A stretch of DNA of 43,748 nucleotides, from NCBI GenBank assembly GCA_947585615.1, contig CANPXD010000006.1:1-43748 (forward strand), given 5' to 3'. This document shows, piece after piece, positions 1,231-11,737 of the stretch (its first letter is position 1; every line of letters starts with the position of its first letter). Under the pieces are notes generated by a model. The model searched no databases. It worked only from the letters and a program-made list of their open reading frames with translations, and had not been told where the DNA came from. A program made the position numbers and the translations under genes. Origin of the DNA: an uncultured Clostridia bacterium. Lineage in GTDB: Bacteria > Bacillota > Clostridia > Oscillospirales > Acutalibacteraceae.

Positions 1231-2961
1231 TTAACGGTTAAAAAACATTGTTTCTAGCGCCTTAAAATCAGGTTTTTTGGCTGGTGTAAGCGGAATATCC
1301 TCAATAAAAACAACATCAACCGGCACCATATATTCAGGCACGTTTGCAACACAGTAATCAATAAGATTTTCCTTTGTTGTTTCTGATGATTTCACAACAA
1401 ATGCAACAGCCACATTTTCTTTTTCATCATCAGGTACGGTTATTACCTCGCATTTGTCAACAGCATCGTTGTGCAAAAGCTCTTTTTTTACTCTGTCGGG
1501 AATTATTTTTGCCGGATTTCCCTCTTTATCAAGGGTTAAAACAATCCGCCTTATTCTGCCGTCGAGGAAAATTTCACCTTTTTCGTTATAATGAACTAAA
1601 TCTTCAGTGTTGTACCAAACGACACCATTTTCATCTGTTACTAAATTATGTGCGGTAGCCTCAGGATTGCCATAATATTCTTTCATTCTTGCAGCGGTAT
1701 AGAAATAGCCGATACCCATTTCGTTTGCTCCAAGTTCTTTGCCGGTATCCACATCTATTACTTTAATCATATTACCGATACAAGGCTTACCAACGCTTCC
1801 GAGCGTGTAATCATCTTCATAGCAATAAGCAAAAGAGCCTAAACATTCACTTGCTCCGTATCCTTGTACAACCTTTGCGTTTCCTCCGTTATCAGCTATG
1901 AATTTATCGGCATTCATTTTGATTTCATCTTGAAGTGCGTCTCCGCCCGTAACGATTATTTTCCATCGTGAGCAGTCGGTTTTTTTACCGGTTTCAAGCA
2001 TTTTTTTAATATATGGCGGTATAGTAAGCCAATGATTAAATTTGTATTGATTATTTCTTTTTATGGCATTTTCAGGTTTGAACAGAGGGTCAAGCGCAAG
2101 AGTAACTCCAAGGCATAACGGCTCATGAATCATATTTAATAGCGAGTAATATATCCAGAGTGGGAATGTAGCAAAAAGAGTATCGCCTCTCTTAAATCTG
2201 TTTTCCTCTGTCATAGCCATAATTTCAACCATGGCTTCAATACCATCCCAAGTCGCAACGCAAGCCTTGCTGTCACCTGTTGAGCCGCTTGTATATGCGA
2301 CAGCGGCCATTTTGTCCGGGATATATTCACAAGGTTGTATATCCTTTTTGCTTCGCTTGCCAAGTTCAATAAGACGATTGAAATCAAGTATATTATTCCC
2401 GTCGTAATCTTTCTTTTTTAAGCCTTTTAGCTTTTCAATAATCAAATACTGTATTTTATCCGAACTAAAACCTTTTGAAAACATATCAGTAAGAGATATA
2501 GTAATGATTTTTTCAATGCCCATTTTTTTTACGCTTTTTCTGACTTCTTTGGAACAAAACAAATCGTTACAGACAAATAGTTTTGATTTAAAATTTTTGA
2601 GTTCTCTTTTCAGCTCATCTATACCTGCGGCACCGTTTACCATATGTATTACAGCTCCTAATTTGTCAAGAGCATAAAAAGCGATAATACCATATGGTGT
2701 TGAAAGCACGCTCATTGTAACAACATCATTGTATTTAACCCCGAGTTCGGCAAAGCCTTTTGCGGCGGTATCAATTAAATTTAACATTTCTTTATATGTA
2801 ATTATATTGCCAAAATAGTTCAATGCCGGAGCATCGCCCATATCGTATGCCGTTTCGCTAAAATGCGCATATGCCGTTTTATATTCAATTATTTTTTCAA
2901 TTTCTCCGGGTTTTTTCAATTTCAAAACTTTGTCTCTCAGTTTTTTAAACTCAACACTCAC
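1231..2961 (-). CDS. AMP-forming acyl-CoA synthetase/ligase-like enzyme (ANL superfamily)
   Basis: Predicted adenylating enzyme of 576 aa. It would activate a carboxylate with ATP and pass it to CoA or another thiol in the cytoplasm. The family core motifs are visible: the phosphate loop AYTSGSTGDSKACVAT (about residue 223), VQGYGASECLGSF, the YNTEDLVHYNEKGEIFLDGR hinge segment (about 452-471), and a C-terminal TPAKKPDFKAL that supplies the usual catalytic lysine. The usual TPxGK reads TPAKK here. The substrate cannot be told from sequence; fatty or aryl acids are both possible. The length is normal for acyl-CoA synthetases and there is no carrier-protein domain. A short 5' leader precedes it, with a TATAAT box at 3063-3068 (minus) and a 22-bp element shared with the next upstream gene. 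No pathway partner is adjacent. Confidence 0.85.
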   Translation of the reverse strand: MSVEFKKLRDKVLKLKKPGEIEKIIEYKTAYAHFSETAYDMGDAPALNYFGNIITYKEMLNLIDTAAKGFAELGVKYNDVVTMSVLSTPYGIIAFYALDKLGAVIHMVNGAAGIDELKRELKNFKSKLFVCNDLFCSKEVRKSVKKMGIEKIITISLTDMFSKGFSSDKIQYLIIEKLKGLKKKDYDGNNILDFNRLIELGKRSKKDIQPCEYIPDKMAAVAYTSGSTGDSKACVATWDGIEAMVEIMAMTEENRFKRGDTLFATFPLWIYYSLLNMIHEPLCLGVTLALDPLFKPENAIKRNNQYKFNHWLTIPPYIKKMLETGKKTDCSRWKIIVTGGDALQDEIKMNADKFIADNGGNAKVVQGYGASECLGSFAYCYEDDYTLGSVGKPCIGNMIKVIDVDTGKELGANEMGIGYFYTAARMKEYYGNPEATAHNLVTDENGVVWYNTEDLVHYNEKGEIFLDGRIRRIVLTLDKEGNPAKIIPDRVKKELLHNDAVDKCEVITVPDDEKENVAVAFVVKSSETTKENLIDYCVANVPEYMVPVDVVFIEDIPLTPAKKPDFKALETMFFNR

Positions 2962-3062: not shown

Positions 3063-3107
3063 ATTATACATAATCTGAATTGGCAATTTCTATACGCCAA
3101 CAGCATA
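3063..3107 (-). promoter_or_regulatory. Promoter copy A: TATAAT box plus shared 22-bp upstream element
   Basis: Read on the minus strand, a 22-bp element (3086-3107, core TGTTGGCGTATAGAAAT) is followed after 17 nt by a perfect TATAAT (3063-3068), about 100 bp upstream of the acyl-CoA ligase ATG. The same 22 bp and the same 17-nt gap occur at 6141-6185 before the LRR gene. No good -35 hexamer is present, since AGAAAT sits there. The element may therefore be an activator or operator site that stands in for it. Confidence 0.6.
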
Positions 3108-3129
3108 CACTCTCAAACTTAATTTTAAT

Positions 3130-3202: not shown

Positions 3203-6103
3203 TCAAAATGGATAGCTGCTTGTGAGCATTTCTCCATAAATAAGAGTTGATTCTCCCTTGCTATCCTCAACTATCATATACGGACGAGCGCAGGCTTGTG
3301 CATTCATTTTCTCTACGCCGTAGGTAAGAGCAAACTGTCCCTCGGGTGCCGTATTGCTGTTCTTGATAATCTTAACCTTACCGCCTTCTGTGCCCTGTTC
3401 TGTGCCTACATTTGTAAGAGTCAGATCATCTTCTTCCATGCCCTTGCCATATACGAATCCCGATTCAACAAGTGAATAGTCTTTAGGCACAAATCTTGTT
3501 GCAAGGAACTTAACGCGAAAATCTCCGTTCGTTTCCGTTTTGCTTACGGAAACAACTACCGGTGTCGGATTCTCAACAGCCGTGCTGAGCTCAATAACAA
3601 CGTCTGAACCGCAAAGGAATGAATAGGATTCGCCGTAAGCGGCAACCGTTCCGTTTACAGACCATGACGCGAACGCGCCGTCTGCCGATTCAACAGTTAC
3701 TTGAGAATTGTAATGAGCTGCTGCGCTGTTTTCAAATTGCTCGCCGTCAACAGTTATTTTGCAGCCTTCTGCCGTAACTGTATAAGCTTTATTTTCATCC
3801 GCCCTGTAGTACGCATACACAATCGCAGAGTTTTTAAGCGCCTTGATTTCTTCAAGCGTCTTTGACCATGCATTAAATACAAGACCTGCATATGAAGGAG
3901 GATCAGGCATCTTCTGTAAATTCTTTATTGCCTCATTGTTAAGAATCGCTATGCAATTTCCATACATATCCATAAACACAACCGTAAAGGTTTCGCTTTT
4001 TTTTTCGCTGAAAACAGGCATGATTGCTGTGTACGAATATATTGGCAAAGTACATACGGATTCTGACGAGATCATTTTTCCATCAACAAACCAGCCTACA
4101 AATTCGGCTGAATCTTTCGGAATAGCCTTCAGCGTGTAGGTTTTTCCATATTCAACGACACATTCTCCCGAAACAAGTTCACCGTTTATTTCAACGCTTC
4201 CCAATTCGGACGTCAGGACTGTGATATACTTTCCAATGGGTATAAAATTCCTTCCGTACTTCTCAGCGTATTTCTGCGCGGTTGAGCCTTTATAGCCGTA
4301 AATCGTTGCCATATCTGCTATTGTGCTAATATCATCATATATATCGCAATTTTTATTCATAATATATATGCTTTCTATATAACCGTCAAAAGCCCGATTC
4401 CCTATTGTTGTTACACTTGCCGGTATGGTTACACTTGTCAACATTCCACAACAGGAAAACGCCTCTTCACCTATTGTTGTTACACCTTCCGATATCACTA
4501 TATTTGATAAATTGATACACCAACAAAAAGCCTGATTCCCTATTGTTGTTACGCTTGCCGGTATCACTATATTTGATAAATTGGAACGCACATAAAAAGC
4601 CTGATTCCCTATTGCTGTTACGTTTTCCTGTATTGTTACACCTGTCAACAAGTCACAATCGGCAAACGCCCAATCACCAATAGTTGTTACACCAGACGGT
4701 ATAAATATATTTGTTAAATAGTCGCAATTATAAAAAGTAAAATCCTCTATTGTCGTTACGCTTAGCGGTATTGTTACACTTATTAAGTTTACACAATATT
4801 CAAATGCCCCTCCACCTATTGCTGTTACGCTTTCCGGTATGGTTACATTCACTAAATTTTCACAATATGCAAACGCATCTTCACCTATCGTTGTTACACC
4901 ATACGGTATATCTATATATTTTAGACCGATGCAATCATAAAACGCACCCGCGCCTATATTTGTCACACCATACGGTATGCTATATGATGTTTTTTCTTTC
5001 CCCATAGGGTACTCTTTAAGTTCTGTTGCTGTTTTATTAAACAATACACCGTGCTGCGAAGTATAATTTTGATTATTGGCTTCAACATATATATTCTTCA
5101 AGTTGTAACAATCCACAAACGGAACTTTTCCCATATAGGTTACGCTATCCGGTATAGTTACGCTTGTTAAGTATACACAATTTTCAAATGCAAAATCGCC
5201 TATACCCGTCACAGTATAACCATCAATATTAGACGGAATTATTAAATCAGAAGCAAAGCCTGTATAGTCTGTGATTTCTGCCGTTTCATCGTCAAGTTTT
5301 CTGTATTCAAAACCATAAACGGCATCATCAATTTCAGAAAATGTACGGTCATACTTTTGAGCGTATTCCTGCGCAGTTGAATTTGCGTATCCGTATATTG
5401 TTGCCGTATCTGCTATTGTGTTAATATCATCAGCTATATTGCACTCCCTATTTGCAATATATATGCCGGTCAGGTTTTCGCAATGAGCAAATGCAAATTC
5501 AGCGATAGATACTACACTTACCGGTAGTATTATTTCTGTTAAACTTAAGCAATCAAAAAATGCAAGACTGCCTATTGATTCTACACCTTCCAGTATTGTT
5601 ACATCTGCTAAACTGTGGCATGACATAAATGCTGAATCACCTATTGATGCTGCCGGTATTGTTACATTCGTTAAATTTTCACAACCAAAAAATGAATAAT
5701 CGCCTATATTGGTAACACTTTCCGGTATGGTTACGCTTGTTAAGTTTACACAATTATAAAATGAATAATCACCTATATTGGTTACGCTTTCCGGTATGGT
5801 TACGCTTGTTAAATTTTCACACTCAGCAAATGCCCTATTGCTTATTGAAGTTACGGCATAAGTTTGATAATTCAATGAAACCCTTAACGGTATTGTTATA
5901 TCTGTCTCGGAACCTGTATAGCCGATGATTTCCGCTTTGCCGTCGTAATGAAATGTTTTGTCGTAATAAAAACCTTTTTCAAGAATGATAAATTGAAAAT
6001 CGCCGTCTGTATAAACATCGTCGGCATAAGCGGAAAAATCAAAACCTGCGGTAATACTTAAAAGCATCGCAACGGACAGCAATAAGCTCAAAACTTTCTT
6101 CAT
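3203..6103 (-). CDS. Large secreted BspA-type leucine-rich-repeat protein
   Basis: Predicted secreted protein of 966 aa. The start is placed at ATG 6103, after AAGGAG, because the signal peptide MKKVLSLLLSVAMLLSITAG begins there; the frame is open 27 codons further upstream. Two blocks of LRR_5 repeats (about residues 60-240 and 270-600) repeat the pattern xxLTSVTIPxSVTxIGxxAFxxC. The two blocks are split by a non-repeat segment containing YGYANSTAQEYAQKYDRTF, and a matching segment (YGYKGSTAQKYAEKYGRNF) follows the second block. The C-terminal third holds beta-rich repeat modules (GSVEINGELVSGE, YTLKAIPKDSAEFVGWFVDG, VTAEGCKITVDGEQF). There is no dockerin, LPXTG or transmembrane anchor, so how it stays at the surface is unclear. 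BspA-like proteins usually act in adhesion or binding; a binding partner cannot be named. Its promoter region is shared with the divergent operon at 6278. Confidence 0.88.
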   Translation of the reverse strand: MKKVLSLLLSVAMLLSITAGFDFSAYADDVYTDGDFQFIILEKGFYYDKTFHYDGKAEIIGYTGSETDITIPLRVSLNYQTYAVTSISNRAFAECENLTSVTIPESVTNIGDYSFYNCVNLTSVTIPESVTNIGDYSFFGCENLTNVTIPAASIGDSAFMSCHSLADVTILEGVESIGSLAFFDCLSLTEIILPVSVVSIAEFAFAHCENLTGIYIANRECNIADDINTIADTATIYGYANSTAQEYAQKYDRTFSEIDDAVYGFEYRKLDDETAEITDYTGFASDLIIPSNIDGYTVTGIGDFAFENCVYLTSVTIPDSVTYMGKVPFVDCYNLKNIYVEANNQNYTSQHGVLFNKTATELKEYPMGKEKTSYSIPYGVTNIGAGAFYDCIGLKYIDIPYGVTTIGEDAFAYCENLVNVTIPESVTAIGGGAFEYCVNLISVTIPLSVTTIEDFTFYNCDYLTNIFIPSGVTTIGDWAFADCDLLTGVTIQENVTAIGNQAFYVRSNLSNIVIPASVTTIGNQAFCWCINLSNIVISEGVTTIGEEAFSCCGMLTSVTIPASVTTIGNRAFDGYIESIYIMNKNCDIYDDISTIADMATIYGYKGSTAQKYAEKYGRNFIPIGKYITVLTSELGSVEINGELVSGECVVEYGKTYTLKAIPKDSAEFVGWFVDGKMISSESVCTLPIYSYTAIMPVFSEKKSETFTVVFMDMYGNCIAILNNEAIKNLQKMPDPPSYAGLVFNAWSKTLEEIKALKNSAIVYAYYRADENKAYTVTAEGCKITVDGEQFENSAAAHYNSQVTVESADGAFASWSVNGTVAAYGESYSFLCGSDVVIELSTAVENPTPVVVSVSKTETNGDFRVKFLATRFVPKDYSLVESGFVYGKGMEEDDLTLTNVGTEQGTEGGKVKIIKNSNTAPEGQFALTYGVEKMNAQACARPYMIVEDSKGESTLIYGEMLTSSYPF

Positions 6104-6140: not shown

Positions 6141-6185
6141 ATTATACACAAACTAAATTTTTGATTTCTATACGCCAACAGCATA
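6141..6185 (-). promoter_or_regulatory. Promoter copy B: TATAAT box plus shared 22-bp upstream element
   Basis: Minus-strand TATAAT (6141-6146) lies 17 nt from a 22-bp element (6164-6185) identical to 3086-3107. It is about 40 nt upstream of the LRR gene ATG. Here the element carries an imperfect dyad, TATACGC-CAACA-GCATATA on the plus strand, as expected for a dimeric regulator's operator. See the paired copy at 3063-3107. Confidence 0.6.
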
Positions 6186-6216
6186 TATGCTCAAAATTTT
6201 TTTATTGCTCACTTAC

Positions 6217-6245
6217 TTGTTTTTTCTGATTCATTGTAATAAAAT
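6217..6245 (+). promoter_or_regulatory. Sigma-A-type promoter for the membrane protein-HTH-kinase operon
   Basis: TTGTTT (6217-6222), a 17-nt spacer and TAAAAT (6240-6245) give a normal housekeeping promoter. Transcription would start near 6252, just before the AAGAAGGA ribosome binding site (6263-6270). It diverges from the LRR gene promoter. Confidence 0.55.
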
Positions 6246-6277: not shown

Positions 6278-7402
6278 TTGACAAAAAATTGCAAAAACTG
6301 CGGAGCAGAAATGCCTGAGGAAGCACATTTTTGCTTGTGTTGCCTAACCAAATGTAACAACATAGCTGTAGCGAACAAGAAAAGCAATCATTTGAACCCT
6401 ATTTCTTTTTTTAAATCAAAGTTCACTTTTCAGAGCAGAAAGAAGAAATTTGCCGTAATTGCGATAATTCTGTTCATAATAATTTCAATCATTGCAGGCG
6501 GGTTTTATGTTAGCGGTAAAAATAATTTTTCTGCGTCTTCAAAGCCGCAAAAGAGCGTGGTTTCAACAGTAACCCAAGAGGATGGTTCTGTTATTAAGGA
6601 ATTTGATGACGGAAGTGTTGAAACAAAAACGGCAGATGGAACAATTATTACCGAAGAGGCCGACGGAACGGTTTCTACAAAAAAACCAGACGGTACCGTT
6701 GTCACTGAAAAAACGGACGGTACTACCGAAGCAAAGAAATCTGATAAAACAACAGAAAAGACCACAAATATAACCGAAACACAACCCACTATGCCAAGCA
6801 CAAGTGAGCCAACCTCCGAAGATACGACTGGCAAAACAACAATAATCCAGTATAGGTATCGGGATAAATCCTTTACAACAAGTTCTAACAATAGCATGAA
6901 TGGGTGGAAGCTTTATGATACAACGTATGCTTGGAGTGACTATGGTTCATGGAGCAATTGGTCTTTAGATAGCTTTTCTTCGAGTGACTCAAGGCAGGTA
7001 GAATCACGAACAACATATCGATATTGTGCATTCAAATGTACTAAATGCGGAAACAGAGATCCTTATCGCACTCCATGCGATAATTGTAAAACATCTGAAT
7101 ATTTTGAGTATCAAGAATTATGGTACACAACAAAGGGTAACTCAATGAGCAAAGGGACATTGCCTACAGTTCCGGATAAATATTATGTGACTATTAACGG
7201 AGATCGTTGGTGGTTTGAAAAAGATGGTTACTTAGATGGAGAAGGTGGCATAGGTCAACCTTCAAGAAAGGAATATCGATATAGAGACAGAAAACAGATT
7301 ACGACATATCACTTTTATAAATGGAGTGATTGGTCTGAATGGAGTACTATACCCGTAAGCAGTTCAGATACAAGAGAAGTAGAAACCAGAAATGTAAATT
7401 AA
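6278..7402 (+). CDS. Zinc-ribbon membrane protein with DGT repeats and paired W-rich surface modules
   Basis: Starts at TTG 6278, 7 nt after AAGAAGGA; no ATG fits better. 374 aa. Residues 1-26 form a cytoplasmic CxxC...CxxC zinc ribbon (NCKNCGAEM, CLCCLTKC). One transmembrane segment follows at about 53-76 (FAVIAIILFIIISIIAGGF). The outer part begins with about six decapeptide-like repeats of the form (A/P/T)DGTxxTEx (residues 105-155), then a Thr-rich linker. It ends with two related modules, YRYRDKSFTT...WSDYGSWSNWS...SSSDSRQVESR and YRYRDRKQITT...WSDWSEWS...SSSDTREVETR. Between these lie a second CxxC pair (CTKCGNRDPYRTPCDNC) and a YYVTINGDRWWF segment. The W-x-x-W modules resemble bacterial thrombospondin-type-1-like repeats, but the fit is only by eye. 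Being first in an operon with an HTH protein and a kinase suggests a sensor or an output partner. Function unknown. Confidence 0.85.
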   Translation: MTKNCKNCGAEMPEEAHFCLCCLTKCNNIAVANKKSNHLNPISFFKSKFTFQSRKKKFAVIAIILFIIISIIAGGFYVSGKNNFSASSKPQKSVVSTVTQEDGSVIKEFDDGSVETKTADGTIITEEADGTVSTKKPDGTVVTEKTDGTTEAKKSDKTTEKTTNITETQPTMPSTSEPTSEDTTGKTTIIQYRYRDKSFTTSSNNSMNGWKLYDTTYAWSDYGSWSNWSLDSFSSSDSRQVESRTTYRYCAFKCTKCGNRDPYRTPCDNCKTSEYFEYQELWYTTKGNSMSKGTLPTVPDKYYVTINGDRWWFEKDGYLDGEGGIGQPSRKEYRYRDRKQITTYHFYKWSDWSEWSTIPVSSSDTREVETRNVN

Positions 7403-7438
7403 TTAAGGCAATATCATAATTTGTTAACAAGAGAGAGT

Positions 7439-7861
7439 ATGAAAAAAGAAACTAACGATTTATTTAAAGAACTTCAAAAAAACTGTAAAATAGATGATTA
7501 TATAAACAGTAATACATCATCTTTTGTAAATCATACATTAGGCGATTTTTGGAAAAGTATGTGTGAAAAATCAGGAAAATCAAAATCAAATATAATCAAC
7601 AAATCTGATTTTAATTACAGTTTTTTCTATGACATAATCAACGGCAGAAAAATTCCCGCAAGAGATAAAATTATACGCCTTGTACTCACTATGAATTTAA
7701 CACTTGACGAATGCCAGCAAGCGTTGCGTCTTTCCGATAAAGCTCTGCTTTACCCCAGAGTAAGAAGAGACAGCATTATTATTTTTGCTATCAACAACTG
7801 CCTAACAATAGCACAGTGCAACGAACAGCTAATAAAATTCAATGAGGAAGTTTTAAAATGA
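7439..7861 (+). CDS. Helix-turn-helix-like protein paired with the downstream kinase
   Basis: 140 aa from ATG 7439. An in-frame TTG at 7421 would add six residues, and neither start has an ideally spaced ribosome binding site (AGAGAG sits almost against the ATG). The middle (about residues 57-110) contains SFFYDIINGRKIPARDKIIRLVLTMNLTLDECQQALR split across the two halves of an XRE-like HTH fold: recognition-like NGRKIPARDKIIRL, then helices that resemble the compact C-terminal half of such proteins. It overlaps the kinase by the four bases ATGA, so the two are translationally coupled. In other Firmicutes, similar small HTH proteins sit before similar divergent kinases; that is recalled family knowledge and unchecked here. 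It may be a kinase substrate, adaptor or operon regulator. DNA binding is inferred only. Confidence 0.75.
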   Translation: MKKETNDLFKELQKNCKIDDYINSNTSSFVNHTLGDFWKSMCEKSGKSKSNIINKSDFNYSFFYDIINGRKIPARDKIIRLVLTMNLTLDECQQALRLSDKALLYPRVRRDSIIIFAINNCLTIAQCNEQLIKFNEEVLK

Positions 7862-8601
7862 GCAACAGCGACAATGATTTAAAATTATATATTGAGGAAA
7901 AACTGAAAATCAATTTTAACAAAACAATAACAGTAAAAGAAACCGACAAAAGCAAAATATATGTTTTTGAGCATAAGGAAACCGGTAAAAAAATTATAGA
8001 GCGCGTTTCTTCAAACAGAAACGATTGTGTTTTCAAAACATTAATGGATGTTGAAAACGATAATCTTGTTAATGTTTTGGAAGTATGCAATGATGAAAAC
8101 AGCTTGATTATTCTTGAAGACTATGTTGAGGGTACAAATCTTTTTGACTTACTGCAAAAAGGTAACTTAAACAGAAATACAGCGTTAAAATATACATTAG
8201 ATATATGCAATGCGATTATAGCTCTACACAAGAAAGGTATAGTTCACAGAGATATAAAGCCGGGAAATGTTATTATAACCAAAAACAATACAGCTGTTTT
8301 AATTGATTTTTCCATTGCGAGAAAAATAAGCAGCAATGATGAAAGCGACACTGAAAATTTGGGCACTTTGGGATATGCCGCTCCGGAACAATATGGAATT
8401 ACGCAATCAAATAAAACAACCGATATTTATTCACTCGGGGTATTGCTTAATATAATGCTTACCGGGGAACACCCTGCTGTTGCAATTCCGAAAGGCATAA
8501 TCAGCAGAATCATCGGCAAAGCAACATCTACGCAGATTTCGAAAAGATACCAGTCTGCCGCTCAAATGAAGAAAGACATTCTTTTATTATCTTATTTTTA
8601 A
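7858..8601 (+). CDS. Divergent Hanks-type Ser/Thr protein kinase
   Basis: 247 aa, a single soluble kinase domain without transmembrane or PASTA regions. The C-lobe is well kept: HRDIKPGNV (catalytic loop, H130-R131-D132), GTLGYAAPEQYG (activation/P+1 loop), TDIYSLGVLL (helix F) and KRYQSA (late arginine). Two sites depart from the canon. The metal-binding DFG reads DFS (150-152). The segment that should carry the beta-3 lysine reads KKIIERVS, placing Arg49 where the ATP-anchoring lysine is expected, and no GxGxxG loop is seen. It may be a weak kinase, use an altered nucleotide mode, or be a pseudokinase. It starts at ATG 7858 overlapping the HTH gene stop, and is followed by a strong terminator. 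Confidence 0.88.
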   Translation: MSNSDNDLKLYIEEKLKINFNKTITVKETDKSKIYVFEHKETGKKIIERVSSNRNDCVFKTLMDVENDNLVNVLEVCNDENSLIILEDYVEGTNLFDLLQKGNLNRNTALKYTLDICNAIIALHKKGIVHRDIKPGNVIITKNNTAVLIDFSIARKISSNDESDTENLGTLGYAAPEQYGITQSNKTTDIYSLGVLLNIMLTGEHPAVAIPKGIISRIIGKATSTQISKRYQSAAQMKKDILLLSYF

Positions 8602-8641: not shown

Positions 8642-8671
8642 TGCCAATTGATTATGACTAATCAATTGGCA
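8642..8671. terminator. Strong hairpin terminator, usable in both directions
   Basis: A perfect 13-bp stem (8642-8654 with 8659-8671) closes on a 4-nt loop. On the plus strand it is followed by ACTCTTATTGTTTT, ending the kinase operon 40 nt after the stop. On the minus strand it is followed by GCTTTTTTTT, an even better U-tract. That means a minus-strand transcript also ends here. Confidence 0.85.
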
Positions 8672-8994: not shown

Positions 8995-9633
8995 TTATGG
9001 TCTAATTATAGCAATAGCCGGTGCCATGGCGGCACCCATATTATTTGCATCGGTGATACCAAGGTCGCAAATTGTGCCGATCGACACTGCCTTTATTTTA
9101 ATACCGTCTCCCTGAGATTGAATAACTGCTGATCCTGCTCCCGTTACGGTCCATTGCGCGCTCGGCGGTCTTTGTCCGCCGTATTCAAGCGGGAAACGGA
9201 ATTGCCGCTCAGACGAACAGAAATGGCTTGAAGTACCTGCCACAACGCAATCTGCTCCACCATCGACCAGCATCGCACCTACACTCAGAGATAAAGCCAT
9301 CGTTGAACACGCACCGTAAAGTCCTATTGACGGTATTTCCAAATCCTTGATAGCAAACGCGCTGCCCATACACTGGTCGAGCAAATCTCCGCTCAGAATA
9401 AAGTTTACATCCGCGGGACTTATCTGCGCGTTGGTCATTGCGCGAATTATTGCATCGTGAAGCATTGCGGATTCCGCAAGTTCATAAGACTGTTGCCCCA
9501 TTGTTGTATCTTCAAAAATTGCGTCGAAATCCTCAGCAAGTGGTCCTTCTCCCTCTTTTTTGCCGCAAACTCCGGCCGATCCTGTAATAACAGGCGGATT
9601 ATCAAAAAAAATTGTTCTGCCGTTTATGTTCAT
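8995..9633 (-). pseudogene. spoVAD: Stage V sporulation protein AD, truncated at the C-terminus
   Basis: SpoVAD is a thiolase-fold protein of the SpoVA channel that loads dipicolinic acid into the forespore. The start is placed at ATG 9633, since AGGTG lies 7 nt upstream and the family opening GRTIFFDNPPVITGSAGVCG begins there. Residues 1-206 match the family closely (KEGEGPLAEDFD, the thiolase-like GACSTMALSLS, SSERQFRFPLEYGGQRPP, TDANNMGAAMAPA). The frame then stops six residues later with IAIIRP. Full-length proteins have about 335-340 residues, so the last third is missing (212 aa here). No continuation of the family is visible in any frame downstream. There is no spoVAC upstream and no spoVAE downstream. 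It is a pseudogene or the result of an insertion or rearrangement. Confidence 0.85.
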
Positions 9634-9693
9634 ATAATAACACCTCGCAATTATTGTTGCCATCGTTTTGATGATTATTATTTATTTGACTGC

Positions 9694-10702: not shown

Positions 10703-11737
10703 TTATATCTTTATTAATTCTTTTATTAGCGGTATTTTTTCCAAAACACAGGAGATAAAGCAGCACACAACAAAAACCGATATACTGACAAAAAGTATGA
10801 AAACAGCGGGAAAAGTTTTGCCTGTAAAAATATACGTAAAGAAAATCTGCAGGATGCTGAGATGCAATAAGTAAACGCACAAAACTTTTGAGCCGAAGAA
10901 ATGAATGATATGCTTAATTTTGTCGCTTCTGATCCATTCGCATAATTGGCAGAGTCTGAAAATTCCCACTGTAAGCAGAAGCGCGCCGATTGTAGGAAAA
11001 TAGCCATTAACGGTATCCTGAAGTTCCTGTGAATAATTCGCGCAGATTATTCCGTCAAACGTCAGAATAACCAAACCAGAAGCGGCAGTAAACAGAGGCA
11101 GTGCAACGTACTTCAAAACTTTTTTGGGGGAATGAATATCAATTTGGTTCACATCGCTTTTAAAAAGATACCCTCCCAGAAAGAAATACAGTATTGAATA
11201 CATTGTTTTTGCGCCGGTTTTCAACGGAAGTGACGCCAAAGATATTTCATAGCTTAAAATATGAATGCTGAATTCGCTTCCTGCATAAGCAAAAACGGTC
11301 ATTCCCAGATTATATAGAAACGGAAAAACAAACACTGCTGTCATCAGTATCGTGCTAAGCGCTTTGTTTCTGTATATCTTCTTGAATATGGGATACAAAA
11401 GATAAAGAACTATCAGCGTTTTAAAAAACCAAGCGGGAAAATCAACAACGCTCCATACAAAAAGAAGCAATGCGATTTTTGCGGCTTTATAGTATATTTT
11501 TTCGATTGAATAGTCTTTATTAAGCACCAACGCGCCGTTTACCATAAAAAACAGCGGCACACAGGCGGCAGATATATTCGTAAACACTCTGTCAAACGTG
11601 ATTACATACTGACCGTTTATGAATGAGCCTAAATCGGTTGAGCGGAAATGATAGAAAACAACCATTATCGCCGCAATTATTTTTATAAAATCAAGATAAA
11701 CATATCTGCTGCCGTTATTTTTTGTGATACTTTTCAT
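10703..11737 (-). CDS. Membrane acyltransferase (acyltransferase family 3)
   Basis: 344 aa integral membrane protein with about nine or ten hydrophobic segments. The N-terminal YLDFIKIIAAIMVVFYHFRS is the hallmark first helix of the acyltransferase-3 (OafA/NodX/WecH) family, with the conserved histidine in FYHF. Family members O-acetylate or acylate sugars of cell-surface glycans; the acceptor is unknown. It begins 10 nt after the gatB stop, with AGGATAG as ribosome binding site, so it is likely read through from aspS-gatCAB. There is no functional link to tRNA amidation. Confidence 0.82.
   Translation of the reverse strand: MKSITKNNGSRYVYLDFIKIIAAIMVVFYHFRSTDLGSFINGQYVITFDRVFTNISAACVPLFFMVNGALVLNKDYSIEKIYYKAAKIALLLFVWSVVDFPAWFFKTLIVLYLLYPIFKKIYRNKALSTILMTAVFVFPFLYNLGMTVFAYAGSEFSIHILSYEISLASLPLKTGAKTMYSILYFFLGGYLFKSDVNQIDIHSPKKVLKYVALPLFTAASGLVILTFDGIICANYSQELQDTVNGYFPTIGALLLTVGIFRLCQLCEWIRSDKIKHIIHFFGSKVLCVYLLHLSILQIFFTYIFTGKTFPAVFILFVSISVFVVCCFISCVLEKIPLIKELIKI

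Follow-up and report, generated by a model that had tools for sequence, protein, structure and literature searches.

A zinc-ribbon membrane protein, an XRE-like protein and a Hanks-type kinase linked to a conserved palindrome: a candidate surface-to-gene signalling module in Clostridia

In the leucine-rich-repeat (LRR) receptor kinases of plants and animals, an LRR ectodomain is coupled across the membrane to a kinase. TcaA/YvbJ-type proteins consist of an N-terminal cytosolic zinc ribbon, one helix and an ectodomain, and in the toxin-antitoxin systems HipBA and HipBST an XRE protein resides beside a kinase. The Ser/Thr kinase AfsK of Streptomyces reportedly acts on the transcription activator AfsR, a relation that is also proposed here, and, to our knowledge, few bacterial links from a kinase to a transcription factor come with a candidate operator. 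Here we describe a three-gene unit in a 43,748-nucleotide stretch from an uncultured Clostridia bacterium (contig CANPXD010000006.1; the whole stretch is referred to as the window), which encodes a zinc-ribbon membrane protein (Z), a small protein with an XRE-like helix-turn-helix (HTH) domain (H) and a Hanks-type kinase (K). The grouping of these genes had been suggested in an earlier note on this DNA; this grouping is correct, and it extends more widely than was assumed. A palindrome at 6169-6187 had been overlooked, as had a copy of it at 3091-3109. The trio is conserved, it exchanges its membrane parts, and the palindrome occurs in a defined promoter geometry and is linked to H loci. The Z-H-K system was not described in the open-access literature that we searched, a scope outside which most subscription journals lie.

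The earlier note had set co-occurrence and adjacency of the three genes as a check beforehand, and the outcome does not refute the grouping. A kinase is located within 2.5 kb of H in 81 of the 91 H rows examined, and the trio, with its ribbon-bearing membrane protein, is found in seven arrangements. Z-type proteins are about 100-fold denser beside H or K than at distances of more than 3 kb. Eighty H loci contain a whole kinase, which was counted as soluble in 60 and as membrane-type in 20; judged by eye, the membrane-type kinases mostly possess two or three C-terminal hydrophobic helices, the exceptions being L063 and L073, with one helix and an LRR-like part, and L079, with one helix and another part. 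A strictly defined Z resides within 3.5 kb of 53 of the 60 soluble kinases, as opposed to none of the 20 membrane kinases, and 20 of the 27 loci without a strict Z have a kinase with a membrane part of its own. One genome (G175) has four matches to H, and in its locus L090 a single kinase lies between two H genes (7691-8137 and 10915-11394).

The palindrome was first spotted by eye in upstream stretches and then tested by seeded and unseeded searches; exact inverted-repeat counting in these stretches gave no clear signal. Its core, TATGCTGnCAGCATA, recurs at loci of the orders Z-H-K and H-Z-K and at some membrane-kinase loci. A symmetric model seeded on the Z-H-K promoters, TATA[CT]GCTG[AT]CAGC[AG]TATA, scores at least 13 bits in 24 of 26 such promoters (the exceptions are L089 and L090), and its log-likelihood of 219 compares with a mean of 27 and a maximum of 48 in 25 Markov shuffles, which were run with fewer iterations. 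When 377 kb comprising 29 loci of the Z-H-K group were scanned, 21 loci had a site of at least 15 bits before Z, some of them two, and elsewhere in this sequence only two matches were observed, at 3091 in the window and at 4952 in L090. The unseeded search of the H-Z-K group, which consists of 14 loci in that order and six related loci of other orders, recovered [CT]TATGCTGnCAGCATA[AG] in 18 of the 20 (log-likelihood 215; six shuffles with fewer seeds and iterations reached at most 34). The Z-H-K model reaches 17 bits or more at seven places in 954 kb from other loci, and five of these adjoin K in membrane-kinase loci (L032, L035, L041, L059 and L116). The exact 15-mer is present in 25 of 300 genomes of the family; 19 of these 25 have H, and in 16 of the 19 the site lies within 1.4 kb of it (for G161 the first of two sites was used). 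Mean pairwise identity across 20 aligned sites is 0.73 within the site and 0.38 and 0.33 in the flanks, a comparison that is partly circular, as the sites were chosen by the model.

The window has four palindrome matches at three or fewer mismatches, where 0.09 would be expected by chance. Its whole genome contains three sites with at most two mismatches, namely 6169, 3091 and one on contig C43 without a -10 box at the right distance, and 13 further sites at three mismatches, against 5 matches of a reversed control pattern; eight relatives have 0 to 5 sites of at most two mismatches per genome. Identical copies of a three-mismatch palindrome are found at 45-63 of the window and at 454-472 of contig C39, possibly as part of a repeated stretch.

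Overall, the palindrome is separated from a -10 box by about 21 nucleotides (nt). A -10 match was defined as at least five of six bases at 19-23 nt, a range chosen after inspection of the sites. Such a match occurs on the side away from Z-H-K in 14 of 20 Z-H-K sites and on the other side in 3 of 20, the shuffle mean being 2.4 and the maximum 8 in 2000 (one of the 21 sites, L155, was omitted). In the H-Z-K group, 12 of 18 loci have the box at a distance of exactly 20 nt, and 5 of 18 have one on the H side, 22 nt away. Of the 16 sites of the exact 15-mer near H, 13 have a -10 match on one side, compared with 2 of the 3 sites with H elsewhere in the genome and 0 of the 6 in genomes without H. Of five relatives inspected, L203, L206 and L207 share the promoter geometry of the window, and L209 and L210 lack it. 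Within the window, the site at 6169 points towards the divergent LRR gene, whose product has a signal-peptide-like N-terminus (by eye), and the 3091 site towards the AMP-binding gene, which starts 130 nt away; the two promoters agree at 45 of 60 positions.

The spacing of the -10 box places the centre of the palindrome near -42, which is the usual position of a class II activator. This position, together with the lack of a good -35 hexamer (TAGAAA) in the divergent promoter of the window, argues for activation and against the alternative that H is a repressor which blocks the divergent promoter from the palindrome and is relieved by the kinase. Many XRE proteins are repressors, and the palindrome touches the -35 region or extends into it, where repressors also bind; on balance, repression appears unlikely to us, and activation by H seems the likelier mode. 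It might also be argued that the palindrome serves a different regulator or forms a hairpin in RNA. In membrane-kinase loci it is located just past K, before a terminator-like hairpin (by eye), and in six of the 25 genomes with the exact palindrome a single-protein query found no H, with neither H nor K within 1.5 kb of the site. However, the palindrome accompanies H in loci that differ in gene order and neighbours, in the window and in L137 it is located between divergent starts, and its -10 boxes keep a fixed distance, so that we regard this explanation as quite improbable. In the H-Z-K loci L224, L225, L226 and L227, the divergent gene encodes a conserved protein of 80-85 amino acids (aa), a possible fourth part. 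A possible distant target is seen in L228 (G198:C4), where a signal-peptidase-like open reading frame (ORF; by eye) is preceded by an exact palindrome that lies far from H and has a -10 match 20 nt away.

An AlphaFold2 model of H, built from 54 sequences, is all-helical (pLDDT 94) and predicts a five-helix HTH fold, with an XRE-like core at about residues 34-98 flanked by N-terminal helices and a C-terminal hairpin. The HTH of DdrO (6rnz) aligns with a TM-score of 0.81 by target, a root-mean-square deviation of 1.9 and E 0.09. Sequence-profile matches to the XRE type are weak (E 0.04-0.46), and no Pfam or NCBIfam family matched H above cut-off; a PRESAN match below the Pfam cut-off was judged spurious. 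The Foldseek evidence for an XRE domain, in which XRE domains that superpose well rank behind an enzyme, is only suggestive, and the sequence profiles point in the same direction. The near-invariant Thr5 (Thr in 50 of 54 sequences, with 2 gaps) is a candidate phosphorylation site. The role in gene control that had been proposed for H is backed by the conserved palindrome at the promoters of these loci, which is also the sole pointer to DNA binding; on this sequence evidence, H probably binds the palindrome and is a candidate transcription activator. Four proteins of about 345 aa (L131, L132, L133 and L135), macro-domain (ADP-ribose)-like by eye, end in the HTH-plus-hairpin domain of H, and L134 (213 aa) has this domain without the macro part. 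A phage origin of H was also considered: six unannotated records labelled as phage, among them OR848110, OR846727 and MT837913, encode H-like proteins of 27-29% identity.

K matches the Pkinase profile (PF00069) at 1e-34, and its structure model is confident. Across 104 K sequences, the catalytic-loop Asp and the metal-binding Asp are invariant, and the catalytic-loop Asn and an activation-loop Thr are each retained in 103. A toxin-antitoxin or anti-phage role was considered, given that a small HTH protein lies beside a kinase in one operon, as in HipBST, and that kinase-based defence models of PADLOC match K. However, the PADLOC matches listed span the kinase domain only, HipA is absent among the 11 Pfam matches of K, and such a unit would not account for a membrane protein whose ectodomains are exchanged; on the Pfam and PADLOC evidence this reading was rejected as very improbable. 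A second kinase-like protein of the genome (G000:C1:58062-58535, locus L167) has, by eye, a zinc-ribbon-like start and a transmembrane segment with PASTA-like repeats at its end.

In the window, a single in-frame ORF runs without a break through the N-terminus, the linker and the ectodomain of Z, and H and K come after it. As the earlier note had stated, its product is a membrane-spanning zinc-ribbon protein, with the Cys pattern C5-x2-C8-x10-C19-x2-C22 and a single hydrophobic helix starting near residue 58. The supposed repeat modules outside the membrane turned out to be a linker of the DGT type and a YRYR/WSxWS ectodomain, in which a second CxxC pair occurs. This WSxWS ectodomain is 74% identical to that of another ribbon gene, near a sister operon. 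A Tcp10_C match below the Pfam cut-off was taken as spurious or as caused by the DGT repeats. Of 61 Z proteins, 57 were scanned after removal of four duplicates; the Cys pattern was used in picking relatives, and its invariance there is therefore by construction. Zn_Ribbon_1 was matched at E of 1e-3 or lower in 40 of the 57, the match of the window Z (E 0.028) being below cut-off. The ectodomains are strongly divergent, and BspA-type LRR (LRR_5) occur in 32 of the 57.

It might be hypothesized, with a little more than even confidence, that Z, K and H are the three components of one module that carries signals from the surface to the genes, leading from a receptor through a kinase and an XRE activator to a few genes. 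Z would span the membrane as the sensor, its variable ectodomain (WSxWS in the window, LRR in roughly half of the relatives) meeting something outside, and its cytosolic zinc ribbon would talk to K. K may be catalytically active and phosphorylate H, or it may relay the signal by binding. H would occupy the palindrome, roughly 42 bp upstream of starts without a good -35 box, and recruit RNA polymerase to a few genes, here those of the divergent LRR surface protein and the AMP-binding enzyme, and in relatives often, although not always, that of a surface or membrane protein.

Several observations weigh against this module. By a simple rule, divergent ORFs were called within 420 nt, and in only 9 of 24 Z-H-K loci is the product surface- or membrane-like: the window (LRR), L137 (Sel1/transmembrane), L138 (ribbon/NPCBM), L148 (cohesin), L150, L152, L154 (LRR/cohesin/lectin), L158 and L159 (CHAP). 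In 12 of 24 the ORF is other or doubtful (including HprK in L142), and in 3 there is none. L138, L142 and L158 have weak sites (13-15 bits), and the site of L159 has no -10 match. The low share of surface-like products lowers our confidence. No strong palindrome is present upstream of H in two groups with divergent K and H (14 and 17 loci), where only weak motifs were obtained (54.7 against 36.4 and 45.2 against 33.5); the window genome lacks the exact 15-mer, and the window sites deviate from the longer consensus at 1 and 2 positions. The top-ranked Foldseek matches of H, above DdrO, are to an enzyme (MPnS, 0.05), none being at E of 0.001 or lower. With a looser ribbon definition, 55 of 60 soluble and 3 of 20 membrane kinases have a neighbour with ribbon and transmembrane helix, and one or two changes on the tree of H suffice to explain the split between soluble and membrane kinases; the complementarity of Z and membrane-type K therefore rests on few events, and its Fisher value of 1.9e-13 is not to be taken at face value.

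The N-lobe of K calls for similar caution. No clear GxGxxG glycine loop was seen by eye, the beta3 column holds Lys in 28, Arg in 47 and Ile in 18 of the 104 sequences (Arg49 in the window), and the Gly of DFG is kept in only 18 and lost in 86. As the glycine loop, the beta3 Lys and this Gly are eroded, catalysis by K is uncertain. These features, together with the short alpha-C helix of the model (residues 56-62), would suit a pseudokinase that binds nucleotide or acts as a scaffold in a sequestering Z-K-H complex at the membrane, from which a signal frees H without phosphate transfer. The catalytic-loop, metal-binding and activation-loop residues named above speak against this, and such retention is unusual for a pseudokinase; we consider it a minority possibility.

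The features of the locus are summarized in the table below. The three ORFs were found where the earlier note had placed them, with the tight spacing it described, H and K sharing an ATGA at 7858-7861; for H, the ORF list also contains a longer form from a TTG at 7421. The proposed shared promoter is present as sequence, but its -35 matches only three of six bases and it is outside the 11 sites listed by a promoter scan; better hexamers occur at a similar position in L139, L147, L154, L086 and L088 (by eye). The one terminator claimed for the unit is doubtful: the T-run of the hairpin is on the minus strand, and the hairpin thus suits convergent genes better and is at most shared. A SpoVAD-like ORF at 8995-9663 on the minus strand matches only profile positions 3-206 of 329 and looks like a truncated remnant.

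Table. Features of the window around the Z-H-K genes
Feature	Position	Strand	Description
Z	6278..7402	+	374 aa; TTG start, AAGAAGGA 7 nt upstream
H	7439..7861	+	140 aa from ATG; XRE-like HTH protein, KxT motif N-terminal, helical hairpin C-terminal
K	7858..8601	+	247 aa; soluble Hanks-type kinase, intact catalytic loop, degenerate N-lobe
Palindrome TATACGCCAACAGCATATA	6169..6187	.	candidate H operator; adjoins -35 region of divergent promoter
Second palindrome TATACGCCAACAGCATACA	3091..3109	.	TATAAT 22 nt off; faces AMP-binding gene
TATAAT -10 box	6141..6146	-	divergent (LRR gene) promoter; 22 nt from palindrome
BspA-type LRR protein	3203..6103	-	divergent; 966 aa from ATG 6103; Pfam LRR_5 5.5e-109; candidate target
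AMP-binding enzyme	1231..2961	-	576 aa; Pfam AMP-binding 6.5e-49; candidate second target
Candidate Z-H-K promoter	6217..6245	+	TTGTTT-17-TAAAAT; weak -35
Hairpin	8642..8671	.	between convergent genes; T-run on minus-strand side

A putative receptor, a kinase, a regulator, a DNA site and candidate targets are all found in one small stretch, which makes each step testable, and the surface signalling of uncultured gut Clostridia is little known. Compared with described systems, K has the profile, the catalytic loop (HRD/N) and the DFx Asp of a Hanks-type Ser/Thr kinase and lacks its glycine loop and beta3 Lys. The PASTA kinases PknB, PrkC and StkP are closest, coming first in the sequence search over the C-lobe, with PknB first by fold. 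As the earlier note had held, K differs from them: it has no transmembrane helix in its 247 aa and no PASTA part, it scores 135.7 bits on PknB_PASTA_kin (cut-off 450), and the PASTA kinase of the genome is another gene. No histidine kinase or receiver domain is among the Pfam matches of Z, H or K, which sets the unit apart from two-component systems. HipBA and HipBST employ a different kinase family, and the membrane receptor and promoter sites are found here. Z resembles the TcaA/YvbJ type in its N-terminal zinc ribbon and single transmembrane helix and differs from it in its link to K and H and in that no TcaA-type ectodomain is among the 14 Pfam families matched by the 57 Z. AfsR is said to be a large SARP protein, and AfsK-AfsR to work without a zinc-ribbon receptor, unlike the unit described here. 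In PknS-EcfK of Xanthomonas citri (PMC13147305), a Hanks-type kinase likewise acts through a cognate transcription factor on a gene set; PknS is a transmembrane kinase and its target an ECF sigma factor, whereas here a mostly separate zinc-ribbon receptor and an XRE-like target are found. An LRR-linked kinase in bacteria is not new in itself: a kinase with leucine-rich repeats has been reported for Pseudomonas aeruginosa (gi 9948555; PMC1262709), and STPKLRR of Vibrio splendidus is another, described as secreted, unlike here. The excerpts on these two mention neither a ribbon receptor nor an HTH partner, "zinc" and "HTH" having 0 occurrences in PMC1262709. Relative to the LRR receptor kinases of plants and animals, the likeness is an analogy only, with mostly two genes, BspA-type repeats and an XRE-like output. 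The exchange of ectodomains suggests that one signalling chassis is re-aimed at different outside cues. We see an even chance that these loci represent a widespread, undescribed class of receptor-kinase signalling in Clostridia, in which an exchangeable, often LRR, ectodomain on a ribbon receptor or on the kinase, a Hanks kinase whose N-lobe is reduced, and a dedicated XRE activator that has a conserved operator would switch on a small number of genes, several of which encode surface proteins, as a split counterpart of the LRR receptor kinases.
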